DNA of 39,392 nt from an uncultured bacterium (GTDB taxonomy: Bacteria; Bacillota_I; Bacilli_A; RFN20; CAG-826), in NCBI GenBank assembly GCA_949297445.1, contig CASFSS010000012.1, forward strand, positions 1 through 39,392. The letters are read 5' to 3'. Every line of letters begins with the position of its first letter. Position 1 is the stretch's first letter. Shown piece after piece: positions 173 through 13,270 of the stretch. Under the pieces are notes generated by a model. The model was not told the DNA's origin, ran no database searches, and saw only the letters and a list, made by a program, of their open reading frames with translations. Made by a program: the position numbers and the translations under genes.

Positions 173-3100
173 TTATAAGCCAAACTTTTTAATTCGTTCG
201 TAGCGATCTTTAGCTCGTTGCTCAGACTTAGTCAATAACTCTTCCGCGTGTTCAGGATTGACAATTGGCAATTGTGAGAAACGCGTTTCGCCCATGACAA
301 ATTCTCTAAATTTGGTGAAGTCCGGCTCTTTCATATCGAGTTCTAGACCCGGCAAACCTTGAGCGACTTTGCGAGGATCATATCTAAAGATGGGGAAATA
401 ACCAGCTTCAACAGCTTTCTTTTCGACCTTCATCGTGTTAGATAAGCCACCCTTAATACCGTGATTAGCGCAAGGTGCATAGCAAATTATTAATGATGGT
501 CCATCGTAACTTTCTGCTTCTTTTAAGGCTTGAATGGCTTTCATTGGGTTAGCACCCATCGAAATTTGGGCCACATACACGTGGCCATACGCCATAGCCA
601 TAAGGGCTAGATTCTTTTTCGCACCGGTCTTACCGGAAGCGGTAAATTTGGCGATTGAACCAGTTTGGGACGATTTAGAAGATTGACCACCGGTATTTGA
701 ATATACTTCTGTATCTAAAACCAAGACGTTGACATCGTCTTCATTGGCTAAAACGTGATCAAGACCACCATAGCCAATATCATAAGACCAACCATCACCA
801 CCGATAATCCAAACTGACTTATCGAGCAAATCGCGTTCAAAATTGAGCACTTCTTTAATCGCTACATTTTTACTCGCTTTAACTTGTTCGACTAAGGTAG
901 GAATGATTTTTCTTGCCGCGTCTTTGTTTTTAATATTATTTAAATATTCGTCGATGGTTGCCTTTAAATCTTGTTCGACGTCATCGCTATTTTTAGCGGC
1001 GGTTAAAATGCGAACAATTTGCGCCAATTTGTAATTAGTAGCAATGCGCATACCATAACCAAACTCGGCGTTATCTTCGAATAAGGAGTTGGCCCAGGCT
1101 ACACCTTGACCATTTTTATCGGTGCAAAATGGAGTCAATGGTGTTGAGCCACTATAGATTGAAGAGCAGCCGGTAGCGTTAGCGACCAACATATCTTTAC
1201 CAAATAATTGTGACACCAAGCGATAGTATGGCGTTTCACCGCATCCGGCACAAGCACCGCTAACTTCCATATATGGCATCAAAAAACCGACACCTTTAAC
1301 GGTATTAGTAGGCACTAAACCACTCTTATATTCAGTGTGCTTATATAAATATTCGGCAGCTTCCTCTTGCACAAATTGCTCTTTGGCCTCTTTCATGACC
1401 AAAGCGTGTTTACCCATCTTGTTAGCCATACATTCAGTCACACATAGGGCACAACCAACACAGTTTTGAGGCGAGACTTGAATGCGGAATTTGTAAGGCT
1501 TTAATGCTGGACCGCCTACCGCTGGTAGCACATCATTTTTAATGATGTCGGGCGCTTTAGCGTACTCTTCTTCGCTAATTAGGAAAGGACGAATCGTCGC
1601 ATGGGGGCAAACGAAAGCGCATTGATTGCATTGAATACAATCATCTTTATTCCAAACAGGCACCATGTCCGCGATGGAACGCTTTTCTTTGAAGGTAATA
1701 TTGTTTTCCATCGTGCCATCAAGTAGCTCAAATTCTTTAAATTTGGACACCGGAATCGTATCGCCATCAAGGCTACCGACCAAAGCGACATATGTGTCAA
1801 AATATTCATCACCGGTCGTTTCTCTTACACGATGAGATGGCAATTCGACCCATTTTGGATCAACTTTAATTTCTCGAAGACCTTCGGCACCGGCATCGAT
1901 GGCTTTATAGTTTAATTCAACGACATCTTGGCCTTTCTTTGCGTATGTTTTCGCCGCAAGTTTCTTCATCCATTCTTGAGCATCTTTATAAGGCATAATG
2001 CCTTGATTTAGATAGAAGAAAGAGGCTTGCAAAGTTGTGTTGGTATGACGACCCATGCCAATTTCATGAGCAATCTTATTGGCGTCAATAACATAAAATT
2101 TGGCTTTTTTGCTGGCTAATTGATGTTTGACCCGATTTGGCAAAGAGCGAATTAATGTCGCATCGTCCATATCGGTGTTAAGCAAGAACGTTCCACCTTC
2201 TTTAAGATTTTTAATCATGTCAAACTTAAATAGGTAAGTATCTAATGAACAAGAAATAAAGTCGGCATTTTCGACATAATAAGTCGAATGAATGGGCGAT
2301 TTGCCAAAACGCAAGTGCGAACGTGTAACACCACCGGCTTTGCGCGAATCGTAAGCAAAATAAGCTTGGGCATATTGATGGGTCGCATCACCGATGATTT
2401 TAATGGAAGATTTATTGGCTGAAACGGTACCATCACTACCTAAACCGTAGAATAAACAAGATGTATAATCACCTTTAATGTGGAACGATTCATCAACTTT
2501 AATTGATAAATGTGTCACGTCATCATCGATACCGACGGTGAAATTATGATGAGGATTAGCATTTAAGAAATCGAAAACCGACTTGATGTGTTTTGGCTGA
2601 GTATCTTTGCTAGATAAGCCATAACGTCCACCATAAACATCAACATGACGATTCATTTGTTTTAAAGCCGCCACAACATCTTCATAAAGAGGCTCGCCGC
2701 TAGCACCAATTTCCTTCGTGCGGTCTAAAACGGCAATCTTTTTAACTGTGGCAGGAATTTTATCAACTAAGTGTTGGGCAGAAAATGGACGGTAAAGATG
2801 AACTTTAACTAAACCGACTTTTTCACCACGATTAATTAATTCATCCACCACTTCAATGGTCGTCTCGGTTACCGAACCCATGGCGATGATAATGCGGTCG
2901 GCATCTTTAGCGCCATAATAGGTAAACGGAGCATATTCGCGACCAGTCAATTCACTGGCAATTTTTAAATATTTTTCGGCAACATGAAGGACTTTTTCAT
3001 AATGTTCATTTTGTGCCTCTCGACCTTGGAAATAAATATCGTCGTTTTCTGCTCCACCGCGAGTCACAGCGTGAGTGTGCGGATTTAAAGCGCGACGGCG

Positions 3101-3715
3101 GAATTCTTCCACCTTGTCTAATGGCAACAATTTGCGATATTCTTCAGCGTCGACAAACTCGACGTTTTGAATTTCGTGCGAAGTGCGGAAACCATCGAAA
3201 AAATGAAGCATTGGACTCATTGAATCAATGGCAATTAGATGAGCGATTGGGGCTAAATCGGCAATTTCTTGCACCGAATGTGAGCAAAGCATCGTGATGC
3301 CGGTTTGGCGCACCGCATAAATGTCTTGATGATCGCCAAAAATCGATAAAGAACGAGTAGCTAACGAACGAGCGGAAACATGCAAAACAGCTGGCAAAAG
3401 CTCGCCCACCCATTTATAAATGTTTGGAATCATTAATAACAAGCCTTGTGAAGCAGTATATGTAGTTGCGTATGCTCCGGCTTGCAAGGCACCGTGGACA
3501 GTACCGCTTGCACCAGCCTCCGATTGCATCTCAACAACTTTTACAGGCTGATTGAAAAAATTCTTTTGTCCTTTTGATGCGTAAACATCAACTAATTCGG
3601 CCATAGGAGAAGAAGGGGTAATTGGATAAATACCGGCTACTTCTGTGAAATAGTAACTACCCATTGCAGCGGCAGTATTGCCATCGACGGATAGAAATGT
3701 TTTTTTAACTTCCAT
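173..3715 (-). CDS. nifJ: Pyruvate:ferredoxin (flavodoxin) oxidoreductase
   Basis: Cytoplasmic enzyme converting pyruvate and CoA to acetyl-CoA, CO2 and reduced ferredoxin or flavodoxin, a hallmark of anaerobic fermentation. The single chain of 1180 residues matches the homodimeric bacterial type (about 1170-1200). Visible in order: the N-terminal pyrimidine domain with YPITPSSPMAE; two 4Fe-4S motifs, CIQCNQCAFVCP (about residue 693) and CVGCALCVTEC (about 750); CAGCGETPYYRL (about 822) and the thiamine-diphosphate motif GDGWSYDIGYGG (about 975). The first in-frame ATG (3739) lies upstream of the predicted transcription start. The ATG at 3715, with AAAGGAG eight bases before it, is preferred. 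It appears monocistronic with a strong promoter over which a palindrome lies. The insertion sequence begins about 30 bases after its stop and no terminator is visible between them. Confidence 0.97.
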   Translation of the reverse strand: MEVKKTFLSVDGNTAAAMGSYYFTEVAGIYPITPSSPMAELVDVYASKGQKNFFNQPVKVVEMQSEAGASGTVHGALQAGAYATTYTASQGLLLMIPNIYKWVGELLPAVLHVSARSLATRSLSIFGDHQDIYAVRQTGITMLCSHSVQEIADLAPIAHLIAIDSMSPMLHFFDGFRTSHEIQNVEFVDAEEYRKLLPLDKVEEFRRRALNPHTHAVTRGGAENDDIYFQGREAQNEHYEKVLHVAEKYLKIASELTGREYAPFTYYGAKDADRIIIAMGSVTETTIEVVDELINRGEKVGLVKVHLYRPFSAQHLVDKIPATVKKIAVLDRTKEIGASGEPLYEDVVAALKQMNRHVDVYGGRYGLSSKDTQPKHIKSVFDFLNANPHHNFTVGIDDDVTHLSIKVDESFHIKGDYTSCLFYGLGSDGTVSANKSSIKIIGDATHQYAQAYFAYDSRKAGGVTRSHLRFGKSPIHSTYYVENADFISCSLDTYLFKFDMIKNLKEGGTFLLNTDMDDATLIRSLPNRVKHQLASKKAKFYVIDANKIAHEIGMGRHTNTTLQASFFYLNQGIMPYKDAQEWMKKLAAKTYAKKGQDVVELNYKAIDAGAEGLREIKVDPKWVELPSHRVRETTGDEYFDTYVALVGSLDGDTIPVSKFKEFELLDGTMENNITFKEKRSIADMVPVWNKDDCIQCNQCAFVCPHATIRPFLISEEEYAKAPDIIKNDVLPAVGGPALKPYKFRIQVSPQNCVGCALCVTECMANKMGKHALVMKEAKEQFVQEEAAEYLYKHTEYKSGLVPTNTVKGVGFLMPYMEVSGACAGCGETPYYRLVSQLFGKDMLVANATGCSSIYSGSTPLTPFCTDKNGQGVAWANSLFEDNAEFGYGMRIATNYKLAQIVRILTAAKNSDDVEQDLKATIDEYLNNIKNKDAARKIIPTLVEQVKASKNVAIKEVLNFERDLLDKSVWIIGGDGWSYDIGYGGLDHVLANEDDVNVLVLDTEVYSNTGGQSSKSSQTGSIAKFTASGKTGAKKNLALMAMAYGHVYVAQISMGANPMKAIQALKEAESYDGPSLIICYAPCANHGIKGGLSNTMKVEKKAVEAGYFPIFRYDPRKVAQGLPGLELDMKEPDFTKFREFVMGETRFSQLPIVNPEHAEELLTKSEQRAKDRYERIKKFGL

Positions 3716-3741
3716 TAATAAAACTCCTTTTAACGCCATTT

Positions 3742-3770
3742 ATTATAATTTTAGAGAAGTTAGATATCAA
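3742..3770 (-). promoter_or_regulatory. PFOR promoter
   Basis: TTGATA (3770-3765), a 17-base spacer and TATAAT (3747-3742) form a near-consensus sigma-A promoter. The start of transcription would be near 3735, which rules out the ATG at 3739 and supports the start at 3715. Confidence 0.75.
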
Positions 3771-3777
3771 TATCTAA
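3760..3777. promoter_or_regulatory. 18-bp palindrome over the PFOR -35 box, candidate operator
   Basis: TTAGATATTGATATCTAA (minus strand) is an inverted repeat with perfect 8-base arms and a 2-base centre, and the -35 hexamer lies inside it. The position is ideal for repression. Its overall size and TT...AA ends resemble Rex operators, but the inner bases differ from the usual Rex consensus. Confidence 0.6.
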
Positions 3778-3814
3778 CAAATGAATTTGACCATTTTTTC
3801 AATTAGCCACAAAA

Positions 3815-3835
3815 GAAAAAAACGCCATAAGGCGC
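3815..3835 (-). terminator. Rho-independent terminator after the Rex-like gene
   Basis: CGCC-TTAT-GGCG hairpin (short 4-bp G/C stem) followed on the minus strand by eight T residues (3822-3815). It lies 22 bases after the stop of the 3857-4267 gene and just before the PFOR promoter. Confidence 0.65.
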
Positions 3836-3856: not shown

Positions 3857-4267
3857 TTATTTTTTTCTTCTTGCTACTAGTTCGCTACCAATTATTTTTT
3901 TCAAAATGCGCAAATCGGTGTCACTCAAGACAATATTACGATCAACTAGTCCGCCTACCGTCATCTTTTTATAGACAAAATCGGCAACTGAATCGTATTC
4001 TAAAATCATCTTTTTCTTAATGGTTGTTTGATGTTCTTTTTTGTCTTTTGATGCTTCAATTTCGGAAAGATATTCCTCAATTACAGGCAATAAATCTTTA
4101 ACATTATAAGAAATATCCATGCGAATCAAAGGATCAAAAAAAGATAGTTCCTCGGCGATGATGTCCGGATAGCGGCCAAAAACATGCGAAAGCCTTTCGA
4201 TGGTTACATATTTATTTTTAATAGAAGAAATGGCTTTTTGATATTTTTTGGCCAAGGTTTTATTCAT
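3857..4267 (-). CDS. Rex-like winged-helix DNA-binding protein without an NAD(H)-binding domain
   Basis: A 136-residue basic, mostly helical protein. Residues about 20-60 (YVTIERLSHVFG ... EELSFFDP ... SYNVKDLL) line up without gaps, from memory, with the winged-helix half of the redox repressor Rex (VSSAELSDAV ... RDFSYFG ... GYNVDYLL in B. subtilis). The match includes the L-S, S-x-F and Y-N-V positions. The Rossmann NAD(H)-sensing and dimer-swap half of Rex (about 210 residues in all) is absent; instead there is a charged linker and a short helical C-terminus of unknown role. It sits directly upstream of PFOR, whose promoter carries a palindrome, so it may control PFOR; that is inference. 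No Shine-Dalgarno is present and an extended -10 box lies 6 bases before the ATG, so the mRNA is probably leaderless. An unrelated small winged-helix protein remains possible. Confidence 0.6.
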   Translation of the reverse strand: MNKTLAKKYQKAISSIKNKYVTIERLSHVFGRYPDIIAEELSFFDPLIRMDISYNVKDLLPVIEEYLSEIEASKDKKEHQTTIKKKMILEYDSVADFVYKKMTVGGLVDRNIVLSDTDLRILKKIIGSELVARRKK

Positions 4268-4299: not shown

Positions 4300-4319
4300 G
4301 CATTATTAATTGATAATGC
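4300..4319. promoter_or_regulatory. 20-bp near-palindrome upstream of the Rex-like gene
   Basis: GCATTATTAATTGATAATGC pairs at 18 of 20 positions (perfect 7-base arms). It overlaps the stop codon of the kinase gene and reaches the expected -35 region of the Rex-like gene promoter. It could be an autoregulatory operator; it shares only a TATCAAT core with the palindrome at PFOR. Confidence 0.4.
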
Positions 4320-4767
4320 GCAATTCATCGTAGGCTTCTAAAACTTCTCTCGAAGGCTCTTCGTAAGTTAAGGCAAGTTTTTCTATAATCTCAGGCGGGA
4401 CAATTCGCGCTACATCTCTATTCAAATTTTGACGCAAAATAACTTCCATTGGCTTTTTAAATTCCAATAAAATTTTTCTATCAAAGCCAGGAATAAAAGC
4501 ATATTTAAGACGAAATTCGTTTTTTAAATTCGTTGCATCAGCTATGACGGTCGAATCATCATATATATCTCTAAATTTGCTAATTAACTCATAAAAACGG
4601 GCCCACATTTTAATGTCCATTGAAAAGTTTTGATAATCGCCGGTCATAACTTTTCGTAGTTCGTCGCTAGAAACGATAAATGTGTGCGGATGCTGACTAG
4701 CATACTTTTTGGCGTAAGTTGATTTACCAACCCCTGGTAAGCCGCATAAAAGAATAAATGTTTTCAC
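4306..4767 (-). CDS. P-loop kinase of the AAA_33 / polynucleotide-kinase-like group
   Basis: A 153-residue soluble nucleotide-binding protein. Visible motifs are a Walker A GLPGVGKST (residues 9-17), SSDELR (33-38, the acidic residue where such kinases bind metal or acceptor), DATN (77-80) and a lid-type segment NRDVARIVPPEIIEKL (116-131). This is the plan of small polynucleotide-kinase-like or zeta-toxin-like phosphotransferases; the acceptor substrate cannot be told from sequence. The start is GTG at 4767. No Shine-Dalgarno is visible, and a TAAAAT six bases upstream hints at another leaderless mRNA, with a poor -35. It lies between tRNA-Lys and the Rex-like gene, 38 bases from the latter. 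No antitoxin-like partner is seen, which argues against a toxin. Confidence 0.75.
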   Translation of the reverse strand: MKTFILLCGLPGVGKSTYAKKYASQHPHTFIVSSDELRKVMTGDYQNFSMDIKMWARFYELISKFRDIYDDSTVIADATNLKNEFRLKYAFIPGFDRKILLEFKKPMEVILRQNLNRDVARIVPPEIIEKLALTYEEPSREVLEAYDELRIIN

Positions 4768-5027: not shown

Positions 5028-6272
5028 TTAGGCAATATCATCGCTATTCCATGGCATAACTTGGTATTCACCAGAGGTGACGCCATTTTCTGGAACTTCC
5101 CAAGTATTTTCTCCAGAAGCCCAAGCAAGAGTTCCTTTAATAGTTAATGTTGTGCTGCCAGCTGTCGCTGCACCAATAACGCGCTTATATTGATCGCCAA
5201 TGGTGCCACCGCCTTTATTGCAGTGATAGTTATATGCGACTGTAACAGTAGCATTACCAACCTTCACATCGAACGTGCAACGCGCGCCAGGAGTAAATTC
5301 AGAAATTGTATTACCATTTTGGTCGCGCAAATTGCCCATATATGTACCGGTGAAGGTAACACGTCGATGGCAATTACCATCATATTGGGTCAAACCGGCA
5401 AACCAAGTGTCGGTTAAAGTAATGTAATCGGCTGGTTGAGCAACGGTAGCGTCTTCAACAACTTGAATCTTTTGTACATAAGATAATTGTGGCGAACCAT
5501 AATATCCAGCGGTTTCAGCAAATACTTCGACTAAGTTACCAACAACTAAAGCTGGATAATTGGTCGGCAATAAAGCTGTTCCGCTACCAGCATAAACGGT
5601 AATGTAGTGATCACCATCGGCAATTAAAGCAGTATTACCATCTGGCAAATAGCCAACAACATAGCCACGGGTTGAAACGTAATAGTAACTGGAGTCGTTA
5701 TTAGATTTACCAATAAACGCGTAACGACCGTCGCTACCTGTTTCATACAATTCGGCAATTGTATAAGCATCGTATTCCAAACTAGATGGTGTCATAATAC
5801 AAGTATAACTGGCTGCTTTTTTAAATTCTCCTAACGAAGCTTCGACATCAAAGACAACAGTAGCAGACTCACCTTCAATTGCATCGTAGTCAAAGGTGAT
5901 TAATTGGTGAGTAATTTCGCCGCCTTCTTCCGTGGCAGGGACATCTTGAATGCCGGCAATCAAAGTACCATACGCTTCTTCATCATAACTCCACGTTAAA
6001 GTGACCGTTTGACGCTCGCTACCGGATTCACCACGAACAGCAATAGATTTAGCAACTTTGACTTCGTCATTATTGGCACCATTTAAATTATTTGTGCCAT
6101 CAGCGGTTTGGACTAATGTGGTACCGCTGCCATTCAAAAAGCAAATGGCAGCAGAAGATAAGGCGTTATTGAGATAAGGAGTGGCAGCTGCTTCATCCAT
6201 GCCACCATCGCAAGCGACGAGCACCACACCCATTGCCAATGCCAAACCTAAACTAAGTAGTTTTGTTTTCAT
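5028..6272 (-). CDS. Lipoprotein with OB-fold-like segments, last gene of the nuclease/ABC operon
   Basis: A 414-residue exported lipoprotein: signal peptide with lipobox LVAC, Cys21, then an acidic Ser/Thr/Ala-rich stretch. The middle (about residues 170-275) is beta-rich, with a segment of the kind YAFIGKSNNDSSYYYVSTRG ... GNLVEVFAETAGYYGSPQL, reminiscent of the OB-fold nucleic-acid-binding modules found in YhcR-like extracellular nucleases. A second beta-rich region follows (about 280-390). No nuclease catalytic motif is visible. It starts 34 bases after the nuclease gene with an AAAGGA ribosome site and is followed by a strong terminator. A role in holding or presenting nucleic acid at the surface is inference; it is otherwise of unknown function. 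Confidence 0.6.
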   Translation of the reverse strand: MKTKLLSLGLALAMGVVLVACDGGMDEAAATPYLNNALSSAAICFLNGSGTTLVQTADGTNNLNGANNDEVKVAKSIAVRGESGSERQTVTLTWSYDEEAYGTLIAGIQDVPATEEGGEITHQLITFDYDAIEGESATVVFDVEASLGEFKKAASYTCIMTPSSLEYDAYTIAELYETGSDGRYAFIGKSNNDSSYYYVSTRGYVVGYLPDGNTALIADGDHYITVYAGSGTALLPTNYPALVVGNLVEVFAETAGYYGSPQLSYVQKIQVVEDATVAQPADYITLTDTWFAGLTQYDGNCHRRVTFTGTYMGNLRDQNGNTISEFTPGARCTFDVKVGNATVTVAYNYHCNKGGGTIGDQYKRVIGAATAGSTTLTIKGTLAWASGENTWEVPENGVTSGEYQVMPWNSDDIA

Positions 6273-6306
6273 AATTTTTTCCTTTCTTTATTTTTTATTT
6301 CTAACT

Positions 6307-7845
6307 TCAATTAATTGGATAAACATATCCGCGAACCAAACCGTCTCCATAAACATCTGTGTCAAAGTATGGATCGCGGGCAAGATTATTCATTAATTGA
6401 AGCTGAAAAGTATTATAATACCGACTAAAATAACCTGTCGCACGGTATGTTTGACCGATTACAAAGAAATCAACATTTTTGCTGCCATATGCAGCAAAAT
6501 CAACACGAAAATTAACTTTTAAGGTCGTGAGGGAAACATAAGCATACGCCGTGTAATCGCCATCATCGGCCATGCGATAATAATTGTGTCCTTCGCTTGA
6601 ATCGGTCGGGGCATCGTCATTTTCATCGGCAGCCCGTATGGTCAAATCAATCGTAACAAATTTGCCAACCATATCTTCAAGCTCATCGGTTGTTGTCGGT
6701 TTAGTAGCGCTTTCAACATAAGAGGTCGGTGATAAGTCGTAAACATAATTTTCATCAAGCGCATGAACAGCTGCTTGCAAATTGTTGACTTTTGTTTCAT
6801 CGAGCCAATCATCATGAGTTTTAATGTCGTATGATTCAACATTGATTAAACGCGTTATTCCCTTGCCCAGAGCAAAATCATCCTGCAAATCTGTCAATTG
6901 AATGTTATTTCCGTATGTAGTAGCCCGGCAATAAACGGTAATGATATCGCCAACATGGTAGAACGTGCGATAACTCTTTCCGTAACCGACAAAGCAGTAT
7001 ATATCCGCTAAAACACCATCACCATCTGGGTCAACGACATCTCGGAAGACAAAATTATGTTCGATCATGCCAATGATGACCGCTGTAACGCGTAAACGAA
7101 CACCGCTCCCGCCTTCTTCCTCGGTAACACCATAGTTTGGATAATTTTCGCGCAATTCATGAATGGAAACATCTAATATTTGATTTGTGTAATCATAATC
7201 AGGATCTCTTTCTCCATTCACGCGTCTACCGGATTCTTTTGCTGCTAAAGCCGCACGAATAAAAACATCTAAATATGGGCAGAAACTACTATATTGGCTC
7301 AATTGATTAGCGGTATAGCATTGTTCAATTAACTCTAAGTTTAAAAGCCGATAATCGTCGCCTTCATTAACTTGATACCAAAGAAAAGCCATATAACGAT
7401 TGGATGAAGTGTTATCGGTTACGCCGAAAGCGCTATAATCGTTTTGCAACACAACCGAATGTACTTTTTGTTTAGATGTTTCACCATCCCACAAGATGTT
7501 TTTGACAAAATTAGATGCCTTAACACCCCAGGGTTGAACCTGAGCGGTTGACTCTGGGGTGTTGATTCCTAATAAACGGCAAGTACTACTTGCAGTACTT
7601 ATTAAATTAGTATTTTCGATACGACCATCAAGAAAATTCATTGTGTCTCCGTCGGTTACTCCGGTTAATGTGACTTCCCCAATCGCATTATTTCCATCAG
7701 CGGGCATCGTGAAGGTTTGCCCTTCAAAGGAAGCACTTAAGTGTAAATTGTCTGTTTCGGGAGTTTTAAATGTGTCACTACAAGAGCCTAAAAATAACGG
7801 CAAAACAAGCAAAACACTTAACGAAAAAACACAAAACTTTTTCAT
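6307..7845 (-). CDS. Surface lipoprotein nuclease, thermonuclease (SNase-like) domain
   Basis: A 512-residue lipoprotein (lipobox LGSC, Cys22). The SNase-like domain spans about residues 55-200: GVTDGDT (62-68, Ca2+ ligand region), RLLGINTPES (90-99) and NRYMAFLWY (149 on). These give the three catalytic positions of staphylococcal nuclease, Arg90, Glu98 and Arg150; the calcium-ligand Asp of the VDTPE motif is Asn here (INTPE). After it come beta-rich OB-fold-like regions (about 240-330 and 380-490), so the protein is longer than a plain nuclease. Predicted to cut DNA/RNA outside the cell. It lies directly downstream of an ABC importer, as membrane nucleases of mycoplasmas do. The upstream in-frame TTG (7863) is less likely than the ATG at 7845. 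This is the only gene here ending in TGA, and an in-frame TAG follows two codons later. Confidence 0.85.
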   Translation of the reverse strand: MKKFCVFSLSVLLVLPLFLGSCSDTFKTPETDNLHLSASFEGQTFTMPADGNNAIGEVTLTGVTDGDTMNFLDGRIENTNLISTASSTCRLLGINTPESTAQVQPWGVKASNFVKNILWDGETSKQKVHSVVLQNDYSAFGVTDNTSSNRYMAFLWYQVNEGDDYRLLNLELIEQCYTANQLSQYSSFCPYLDVFIRAALAAKESGRRVNGERDPDYDYTNQILDVSIHELRENYPNYGVTEEEGGSGVRLRVTAVIIGMIEHNFVFRDVVDPDGDGVLADIYCFVGYGKSYRTFYHVGDIITVYCRATTYGNNIQLTDLQDDFALGKGITRLINVESYDIKTHDDWLDETKVNNLQAAVHALDENYVYDLSPTSYVESATKPTTTDELEDMVGKFVTIDLTIRAADENDDAPTDSSEGHNYYRMADDGDYTAYAYVSLTTLKVNFRVDFAAYGSKNVDFFVIGQTYRATGYFSRYYNTFQLQLMNNLARDPYFDTDVYGDGLVRGYVYPIN

Positions 7846-7872
7846 TAATCGTATACCTAACAATATATTTTT

Positions 7873-9396
7873 TTATTTTGGAACATAACTGCTTAGAGTA
7901 GTGTATGTGTTTTCCAAAATTTGTTCGATGGTCATTTCACCAACGAATACTTGAGCCATGATATAACCAACTTCTGTTCTAATTGAAGAAGAGCCAACAA
8001 AACCAGGATCGACAAATTTAACCCAACCAGCATCTTCGTTCATGTAAGTATTTTCGTTTAAAATCGAACTTTCTTGATAAACGCGGTGAGTAGCATCCAA
8101 TGAGGATGGTTCAGCTTTTAAGAAGTTTTGATAAACAGTAGACTCAGTAGCCGACTTCGAAGCTGGGTAATAGCCGGTCGTAACAGCCCATTGACCTTGC
8201 GCTTCACCGGTAGTCATATAAACTATCGCATCAAATGCTTGTTGCATTTGTTCGGCTGTACCTTGATCAAAGAGGGCGAGCGATGTACCTTGCGAAATAA
8301 CATATTTTCGTGCTACTTCACCTTCTCCAGCGTAGTTAGTAACATTATATGGAATGGAAGCGATACCGACCTCACCATATCCACCAATGTTATAACTTAA
8401 ACCACCAGAAGAACAAATAGTAAACATGCAGTTGCCGGCTTTGAATTGGTCACTAGAATAATCGGAAGTTCCGCCCATATCGGTTGGGAAGCCAAAGATG
8501 TGGGATTGATATAAGTCTTTCCAATATTCAAGCATCGCGACGGTACGTTCAGCATTGGTGTTAGTCTTGTTATAAAATTGGACATAGCCTTGTCCAGATT
8601 CGTTAATGGACGTATATTCAGAACCCCATTGACGAACAAGAGTAATAAACATATTGGCCGTCGAGTCCCAAGAGAAAACACGGAAATTTGAATAATTGAC
8701 CGAACGAAGGTCTAAAACGACTTCTTGACCAGCAGCTGTCGCGGCATCAGGTGTCGCATAAACTTTCATGTCGGCGCCAACAACCTTGCCAAAAGCATCA
8801 CTGCTTTGCATTGCGGTCAATACTTTTGCGCCCAAAGTTTCCATTTCTGCCCATGTTTCCGGTACATCGGTACCAATCGTATTGTCAATGGTGTTTACAA
8901 ATTCAAGCATTGTTCGATTATATGCCATGACTTCGGTAGATTTGTTGAATGGTAATCCCATCGTATATGGTTCGCCATCAGCACGATATAACAAAGTTTG
9001 GTTTTCTGTCATATAGTCGGCATAATAGTCGGCTATTAAATCACCACCATGCTCAAGGTTATAAGCGTCGATATAATCATCTAAAGGAAGAAGAATATCG
9101 GAGCGAATGTAACCAGCAAAGTGATCAGGATAGCCGTTAGCGAAATTGGGGAAACTAGCTGTCGCAACTGAATTGTTAATATTCGACTGCAAGTTATCAT
9201 AGCCACCTTGAGAGGCATGTCCAACAATGACGCCACTTTTTGCTTGATAATTGTCTAATAACGTTTCAAGGGCTGTCGTGTAGCTAGAACCAAAGCCGGT
9301 CCAAAGCGTAATATCTGCTTGGGCACCGCAACTACTAGTGCCAACAACCGCTAAGCCGAGCGCTAAAAACGTCGATAACTTAAGCATTTTGTTCAT
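7873..9396 (-). CDS. ABC importer substrate-binding lipoprotein (SBP family 1 type)
   Basis: A 507-residue exported solute receptor. The signal peptide ends in a slightly atypical lipobox TSSC (Cys23), followed by ADITLWTGFGSSYTTALETL, the typical start of family 1 (maltose/glycerol-phosphate type) binding proteins. Later hallmarks include LPFNKSTEVMAYNRTML, PETWAEMETLGAKVL and F..GNCMFTICSSGGL. An AAAGGAG ribosome site lies 9 bases before the ATG. It is the fourth gene of the operon, after both permeases, separated from them by a 62-base gap holding an 18-bp palindrome, and is followed 27 bases later by the nuclease. The family suggests a sugar or glycerol-phosphate-like ligand; the nuclease neighbour suggests nucleosides, nucleotides or oligonucleotides. 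The ligand is not determined. Confidence 0.88.
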   Translation of the reverse strand: MNKMLKLSTFLALGLAVVGTSSCGAQADITLWTGFGSSYTTALETLLDNYQAKSGVIVGHASQGGYDNLQSNINNSVATASFPNFANGYPDHFAGYIRSDILLPLDDYIDAYNLEHGGDLIADYYADYMTENQTLLYRADGEPYTMGLPFNKSTEVMAYNRTMLEFVNTIDNTIGTDVPETWAEMETLGAKVLTAMQSSDAFGKVVGADMKVYATPDAATAAGQEVVLDLRSVNYSNFRVFSWDSTANMFITLVRQWGSEYTSINESGQGYVQFYNKTNTNAERTVAMLEYWKDLYQSHIFGFPTDMGGTSDYSSDQFKAGNCMFTICSSGGLSYNIGGYGEVGIASIPYNVTNYAGEGEVARKYVISQGTSLALFDQGTAEQMQQAFDAIVYMTTGEAQGQWAVTTGYYPASKSATESTVYQNFLKAEPSSLDATHRVYQESSILNENTYMNEDAGWVKFVDPGFVGSSSIRTEVGYIMAQVFVGEMTIEQILENTYTTLSSYVPK

Positions 9397-11719: not shown

Positions 11720-13270
11720 TTAAATGATTCTTTCGCCTGTTTCTTCAAAGACAAAGAAACGTTTTGGATTAAAGCGCAATTCTTTCTTTCCTAAAACATC
11801 CTTACTTAATTCAGAAGGAATAATAATTTTTAAATTATTGGCTGGTTGATCTTTAACGTTACCAATAATGGTAATATCACGGCCAATATGTTCGATGAAT
11901 TTGACATCTACAAGAATCTTGCCGTCTTTAGGAGCGTAAATAAACGATTCAGGACGAACGGCAATATGAACATCGCGGTTTGCTACTTCTTCAGTCGAAG
12001 TTTCAATGCGAACAATTGGATCATCAGCCGGTGTTCTACCAGGGTAAGTAACTTCTTTTTGAATTGATTTGACATAAGGTTTTTTGTAATTTGGACTCTT
12101 GTCAAAAACATCTTCATTTAAGAATAGTTTACCATCTAAAATTCGACCGTCAAAAACATTGATAGCCGGCGAGCCTAAGAACTTAGCAACAAACAAGTTG
12201 GCTGGTTCGTCATAGACGTTTTGTGGCTTATCAATTTGTTGAATGACGCCTTCTTTCATGACGACAATTGTATCGGAGATGGACATTGCTTCTTCTTGGT
12301 CGTGGGTGACGAACACGGTAGTAATGCCAGTTTCTCGTTGAATTCTTTTAATTTCTTCGCGTGTTTGAAGACGGAGACGAGCATCTAAGTTAGATAAAGG
12401 TTCATCGAGCAACAAAACTTTTGGACGTTTAGCCAAAGCGCGGGCGATGGCTACACGTTGTTGTTGACCACCAGATAATTCTTTTGGCTTACGATCTAAA
12501 TAGCGCTCGATATCGACAATGCGAGCCATTTCGTGAGCGATAGCGTTTTTATCTTGCTTCGATAGACGAGTTCTTGCTAAAAGCGCCGCTTGTTTAGGAT
12601 CAGTTTCTTTTAACTTTTCAAAACGAGCAATGGCTTCATTAAGAGCTTTTTCGTCGTTAGCGAGTTGCTTATCTAAGAATTCAAGCCGATCATTTAATTC
12701 TTTAATTCTAGCAACAGACTTTTCAATAGAATCTTTTGTCGCATTGGCTTTTTCAACTAAAACTTCCACTGCTATTTCAGTTTGTCCAGCATCTTTAGCC
12801 TTTTGAATTTGCACATCTTGCTTTGCTAAATGTTTTTCCAATTTAGCTTTTTGTTTGATGGCGGCGGCTAAATCGCTCTTTGTTGAAGAAATATCGCGTT
12901 TAGTATCATACACACGATTTTTCTCGGCCCCAAAAGCACCTGGTAGACGGACATTATCAAGAGGAAATTGAATGTTTTGTCGAACAGATAAGTGGGGGTA
13001 TAGAGCGTAGTTTTGGAAAACTAAGCCAATTCCGCGGTTTTCTGGCGGAACATTCGTGACGTCTTGGTCACCAAACCATATTTGACCGCTTGTTGGCTTA
13101 TGTAGACCGGCAATCATGTAAAGAGTGGTTGATTTTCCACAACCGGAAGGTCCAAGTAGACCAACAAGTTTACCATCAGGAATGACAAAACTCATTTGAC
13201 TGACAGCGGTTGTTTCAACACCTTTACGGCCAACAAAGGTCTTCGTAAGATTCTCAATTCTTACTTCCAT
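11720..13270 (-). CDS. MalK/MsmK-type ABC importer ATPase with helical insertion
   Basis: A 516-residue cytoplasmic ATPase driving the importer. Motifs: Walker A GPSGCGKST (40-48), Q-loop VFQNYALYPHLSV (84-96), signature LSGGQQQR (265-272), Walker B VLLLDEP (285-291), H-loop VTHDQEEA (321-328), then a C-terminal TOBE-type regulatory region ending near RFFVFEETGERI. In MalK the Q-loop and signature are about 50 residues apart; here the distance is about 180 because of an approximately 125-residue Lys/Glu/Ala-rich coiled-coil-like insertion (114-240) in the helical subdomain. A similar oversized ATPase is known from mycoplasmas (MG187 type), also beside a nuclease. AGGAGGT lies 9 bases before the ATG. 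It is the first gene of the operon. Confidence 0.93.
   Translation of the reverse strand: MEVRIENLTKTFVGRKGVETTAVSQMSFVIPDGKLVGLLGPSGCGKSTTLYMIAGLHKPTSGQIWFGDQDVTNVPPENRGIGLVFQNYALYPHLSVRQNIQFPLDNVRLPGAFGAEKNRVYDTKRDISSTKSDLAAAIKQKAKLEKHLAKQDVQIQKAKDAGQTEIAVEVLVEKANATKDSIEKSVARIKELNDRLEFLDKQLANDEKALNEAIARFEKLKETDPKQAALLARTRLSKQDKNAIAHEMARIVDIERYLDRKPKELSGGQQQRVAIARALAKRPKVLLLDEPLSNLDARLRLQTREEIKRIQRETGITTVFVTHDQEEAMSISDTIVVMKEGVIQQIDKPQNVYDEPANLFVAKFLGSPAINVFDGRILDGKLFLNEDVFDKSPNYKKPYVKSIQKEVTYPGRTPADDPIVRIETSTEEVANRDVHIAVRPESFIYAPKDGKILVDVKFIEHIGRDITIIGNVKDQPANNLKIIIPSELSKDVLGKKELRFNPKRFFVFEETGERII

Follow-up and report, generated by a model that had tools for sequence, protein, structure and literature searches.

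A sensor-less derivative of the Rex DNA-binding domain linked to pyruvate:ferredoxin oxidoreductase in uncultured Bacilli

The gene pair and its conservation

The window (the whole stretch of 39,392 nucleotides that was analysed) encodes a protein of 136 amino acids, denoted here REXL, that is derived from Rex, the usual sensor of NADH in Gram-positive fermentation. The REXL open reading frame (ORF) is located 117 bp upstream of the ORF for pyruvate:ferredoxin oxidoreductase (PFOR), on the same strand, and a terminator-like hairpin and a palindrome at the PFOR promoter lie between the two coding regions (Table 1). The family assignment of PFOR agrees with the preliminary description of this DNA, which had placed the small protein beside the main fermentation gene.

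Table 1. Features of the REXL-PFOR locus (positions in the window)
Feature	Position	Strand	Remarks
REXL, Rex-derived protein, 136 aa	3857..4267	-	ATG start; real ORF
Rex-type winged helix, REXL N-terminal residues ~5-70	within 3857..4267	-	profile and fold searches
REXL C-terminal domain, residues ~90-136 (~45)	3860..4000	-	helix, short hairpin, long helix, basic tail
Terminator-like hairpin and T run	3822..3835	-	after REXL; separates REXL from PFOR
18-bp palindrome TTAGATATTGATATCTAA (7-4-7)	3760..3777		inside 20-bp palindrome 3759-3778; overlaps PFOR -35 box
PFOR promoter TTGATA-17-TATAAT	3742..3770	-	11/12 consensus
PFOR	173..3739	-	TIGR02176, 1577 bits; likely start 3715 behind AGGAG box

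Directly upstream of REXL is a gene for an AAA_33/polynucleotide-kinase-like P-loop kinase (4306-4767, minus strand), a neighbour common to only a few loci (L033, L036, L040, L041, L042 and L046). Elsewhere in the window, the ATPase of a sugar ABC transporter (11720-13270, minus strand) appears, from inspection of the translation by eye, to carry a long, charged, coiled-coil-like insertion in the nucleotide-binding domain.

Of 95 genomes searched, 50 gave a REXL match, counting the genome from which the window comes, and seven more loci were found on further contigs. The pairing with PFOR, which the preliminary description had proposed to check, is widely conserved: in 42 of 49 genomes (the window counted; of the seven exceptions, two lie at contig ends), at all seven of the further contig loci, some of which possibly come from the same species, and, within about 3.1 kb, in 17 of 17 later genomes, PFOR is located downstream of REXL and on the same strand. 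At 15 loci, galU is found between the two genes, and in family f2, REXL, galU and PFOR are tightly packed, with galU abutting or overlapping PFOR, so that REXL-galU-PFOR is probably the older arrangement. The genes upstream of REXL vary from genus to genus, and in the window the REXL-PFOR pair stays adjacent despite the intervening terminator.

Among the exceptions, PFOR lies about 8.5 kb away in one genome (G052), REXL and PFOR are on different contigs in two (G010 and G040), and in two more REXL is present and no PFOR was found (G041 and G071). In one of the latter (G041, locus L077, 2529-7428), REXL is located beside lipoprotein genes that resemble those at 5028-9396 of the window. Many genomes of the same order encode PFOR and yielded no REXL in searches with the family profile at a loose threshold. 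No REXL orthologue was detected outside the order, in 395 genomes of the class and 392 genomes of the phylum, barring weak matches that represent Rex or chance.

Homology to Rex and the missing sensor

Single-sequence searches of Pfam and the PDB with the REXL of the window yield nothing usable: there is no match to PF06971 (Put_DNA-bind_N), and the match to one Rex NCBIfam model (E 0.0046, residues 7-68) is below the threshold. Among the 36 orthologues from which the REXL family profile was built, 11 match PF06971, albeit weakly (best E 6.8e-5), and up to 24 match Rex models (best E 3e-8). The relationship to Put_DNA-bind_N that the preliminary description had proposed to check is thus detectable in part of the family but not in the window protein, and no REXL locus among the relatives reaches the gathering cut-off of 27 bits, the best score being 25.5 (G017).

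At the family level, the homology is clear. Comparison of the 36-member profile with all PDB chains places Rex at ranks 1-4 (3wg9 with E 5e-7, followed by 2vt2, 5zz5 and 3keo), and the three REXL-Rex alignments examined contain no gaps over 55-65 residues, with the S-x-F and Y-N-V positions of REXL aligned with S52-Y-F54 and Y64-N-V66 of Rex, as had been read from the sequence at the outset. The hhalign values for REXL and Rex are 93.8% for the whole protein and 95.2% for the N half, compared with at most 3.6% for the controls (20 column-shuffled profiles and one reversed). An AlphaFold model of REXL (8-row alignment, pLDDT 81, pTM 0.48) is closest to Rex as well, the best 14 Foldseek rows and the best 16 VIA-align rows all being Rex, over model residues ~1-72; the best VIA-align match is 5zz5 (Z 8.3, rmsd 2.8, 67 residues aligned). 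The next structural rows, MntR/DR2539 and MarR-type winged helices (Z about 5-6.4), are, like REXL, small winged helix-turn-helix proteins but rank below Rex and show no sequence match. The N half of REXL is, accordingly, homologous to the winged helix of Rex, and in a tree of this domain the REXL and Rex sets fall cleanly apart (100/99).

REXL stops at residue 136, so that the NAD(H)-binding Rossmann domain is absent, as noted originally, and the C half shows neither similarity to Rex (hhalign 0.1%) nor a Pfam match. This half contains a conserved domain of its own, distinct from Rex, with the consensus Y-x-S-V-x-D-F-V-Y-x-K-M-T-x-G-G-x-x-D-R in the first part and L-S-D-x-D-L-x-x-L-K-K-L-I-x-E-E ... 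R-K-K in the later part, and conserved to about the same extent as the N half. When the C-terminal domain was searched by itself, neither profiles nor folds matched: in the PDB, a designed protein came up at E 0.11, and the best VIA Z was 2.8. This negative result is not evidence for a new fold. REXL resembles Rex in the gapless N-terminal winged helix but differs from it in having no Rossmann domain, in the residues at the base-reading positions (A/E/M/D) and in the unrelated C-terminal domain. No description of a free-standing Rex N-terminal domain was found in the literature searched. Altogether, REXL genuinely derives from the DNA-binding domain of Rex, is conserved and is linked to PFOR, and it is not a Rex because neither of the two defining Rex features that were tested was found.

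Base-reading residues and promoter palindromes

In the structure of Thermotoga Rex bound to DNA, the bases are read by R48 and K49 of helix 3 and by R60 and G61 of the wing (PMC8836258). The counterparts of these residues in the REXL of the window are A38, E39, M50 and D51, and the respective family columns are mostly N/A, E/D, M/L and D, the Rex readers being replaced in almost all of the 55 aligned orthologues; arginine is present at the 48-equivalent position in four of these rows and at the 49-equivalent position in three. The Rex proteins of the same clade retain V-R/K-K-D or V-R-R-D. Three of the four REXL rows with the R48 equivalent (L080, L081 and L084) occupy the branches closest to Rex in a tree built from few columns, which tentatively suggests a stepwise loss, whereby this residue would have been kept in early branches and lost later.

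The known Rex operator, TTGTGAAW4TTCACAA, is a palindrome of 7-4-7 geometry (PMC2883068). The 18-bp palindrome at PFOR has the same geometry and also occurs at a fermentation promoter but differs from the operator in sequence. It is identical in all three congeners, with diverged flanks, and only one other exact copy exists in the genome, inside a coding sequence; it is a real, PFOR-specific element and a putative REXL site. Other genera have different palindromes at the same place in the PFOR promoter, for example, TAAGTATNNNNATACTTA over the -10 box. The motif TAAGTAT-N(2-5)-ATACTTA accounts for 24 sites in the 95 genomes, seven of which are at PFOR promoters and the rest at unrelated places with no common function; two of these seven genomes (G007 and G037) have no REXL. 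The PFOR promoters of these two genomes (loci L124 and L125) contain a perfect 21-bp palindrome, AATAAGTAT-N3-ATACTTATT.

Palindromes at PFOR (p<0.1) are not significantly more common in the presence of REXL (27/59) than in its absence (6/15; Mann-Whitney p 0.21), these counts being drawn from related, hence not independent, species. In genus g24, judged at the -10 box, a palindrome is present in four of five cases with REXL and in none of five without it, but this pattern is contradicted by genera g6 and g26, and assignment of the palindrome to REXL by presence and absence fails. Upstream of REXL in the genomes with tight operons, no palindrome stood out by eye.

A full-length Rex is encoded elsewhere in the genome from which the window comes. 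In 20 REXL genomes without a PF06971 match over the cut-off, there is no Rex over the Rex-model cut-off either. The motif TCAGTA-N6-TACTGA is recurrent: several genomes, among them that of the window (TCAGTAAAAAAATATTGA), carry it upstream of rex, and it is found at none of the PFOR promoters examined. Given its position and recurrence, it is a candidate Rex operator. The palindrome TCAGTAAAAAAATACTGA, recurrent at rex promoters of the clade (L001, 1409-1426; also L101, L103, L105, L111, L113 and L114), is a candidate for an autoregulatory Rex operator, one that differs from the usual TTGTGAA-N4-TTCACAA.

Possible roles of REXL

The preferred reading, with a probability of about 0.5, is that REXL is a Rex-derived, dedicated regulator of PFOR with changed specificity. 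Under this scenario, REXL would go back to a Rex-like ancestor, of which it would have kept the DNA-binding half, and would have become dedicated to the neighbouring PFOR. Because the NAD(H) sensor is lost, it cannot respond to NADH in the manner of Rex, and because the base-reading residues are replaced, it should not bind Rex operators. REXL would most likely act as a dimer, held together by the C-terminal domain, and recognise a short palindrome in the PFOR promoter that differs from the Rex operator; in the window, this putative site is the palindrome over the -35 box, where binding would block PFOR transcription. A signal, if any, would reach REXL via the C-terminal domain. The homology to Rex, the conserved pair with PFOR next to changing upstream genes, the palindrome that is identical in the congeners, the seven motif sites at PFOR promoters and the net basic charge of REXL, with its lysine-rich first helix and basic tail, count in favour of this reading, whereas the acidic recognition helix, the lack of a significant excess of PFOR palindromes where REXL is present, the genomes in which REXL and PFOR are on different contigs, those where PFOR was not found, and the many PFOR-encoding genomes of the order that lack REXL count against it.

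The main rival, a possible but doubtful one, is that REXL has ceased to bind specific DNA and that the winged helix now serves for contacts with proteins (or, non-specifically, with nucleic acids), with PFOR, RNA polymerase or some other partner as its target. The loss of all four base readers and the acidity of the recognition helix (P-E-V-I-N-E), a charge at odds both with reading of the Rex type and with obvious reading of the major groove, point in this direction, as does the fact that the most conserved REXL positions (L26, G31, F44, P46, D96, F97, G106, L119 and E129) are structural or belong to the C-terminal domain, and that the presence of the palindrome does not track REXL; conversely, the basic first helix and tail are conserved, and adjacency to a single gene with a terminator in between is a typical setting for a local regulator. 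It is also conceivable, although rather unlikely, that the winged helix gave up DNA reading of the Rex type and that REXL, with its new C-terminal domain, is a dedicated PFOR partner or sensor that operates without Rex and NAD(H), responding, for example, to pyruvate, ferredoxin or the iron-sulphur state.

An explanation of the linkage through inherited gene order, with no functional tie between REXL and PFOR and with the palindrome belonging to an unrelated regulator, would fit the palindromes at PFOR in relatives without REXL and the retention of REXL in two genomes without a detected PFOR; it is improbable in view of the persistence of the downstream pair across families f1, f2 and f6 while the upstream neighbours change. 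Competition with full-length Rex for Rex operators is very improbable because, despite the common winged helix-turn-helix fold and the presence of Rex in the same genome, the base readers of REXL are replaced, REXL occurs in the 20 genomes with no Rex over the cut-off, and the candidate Rex-type site of the rex promoters is absent from the PFOR promoters. From the initial interpretation, then, the winged helix, the missing sensor, the separate C-terminal domain and the linkage to PFOR are supported, but the role as a competitor of Rex is not, and action as a repressor is a putative role.

These small-genome, uncultured Bacilli keep a sensor-less Rex derivative beside a central enzyme of pyruvate metabolism, and Rex itself is often missing. 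If REXL controls PFOR, the control of pyruvate oxidation would be separated from NADH sensing in these bacteria. The apparent stepwise change of the base readers would also clearly exemplify how a repressor domain alters its reading code.
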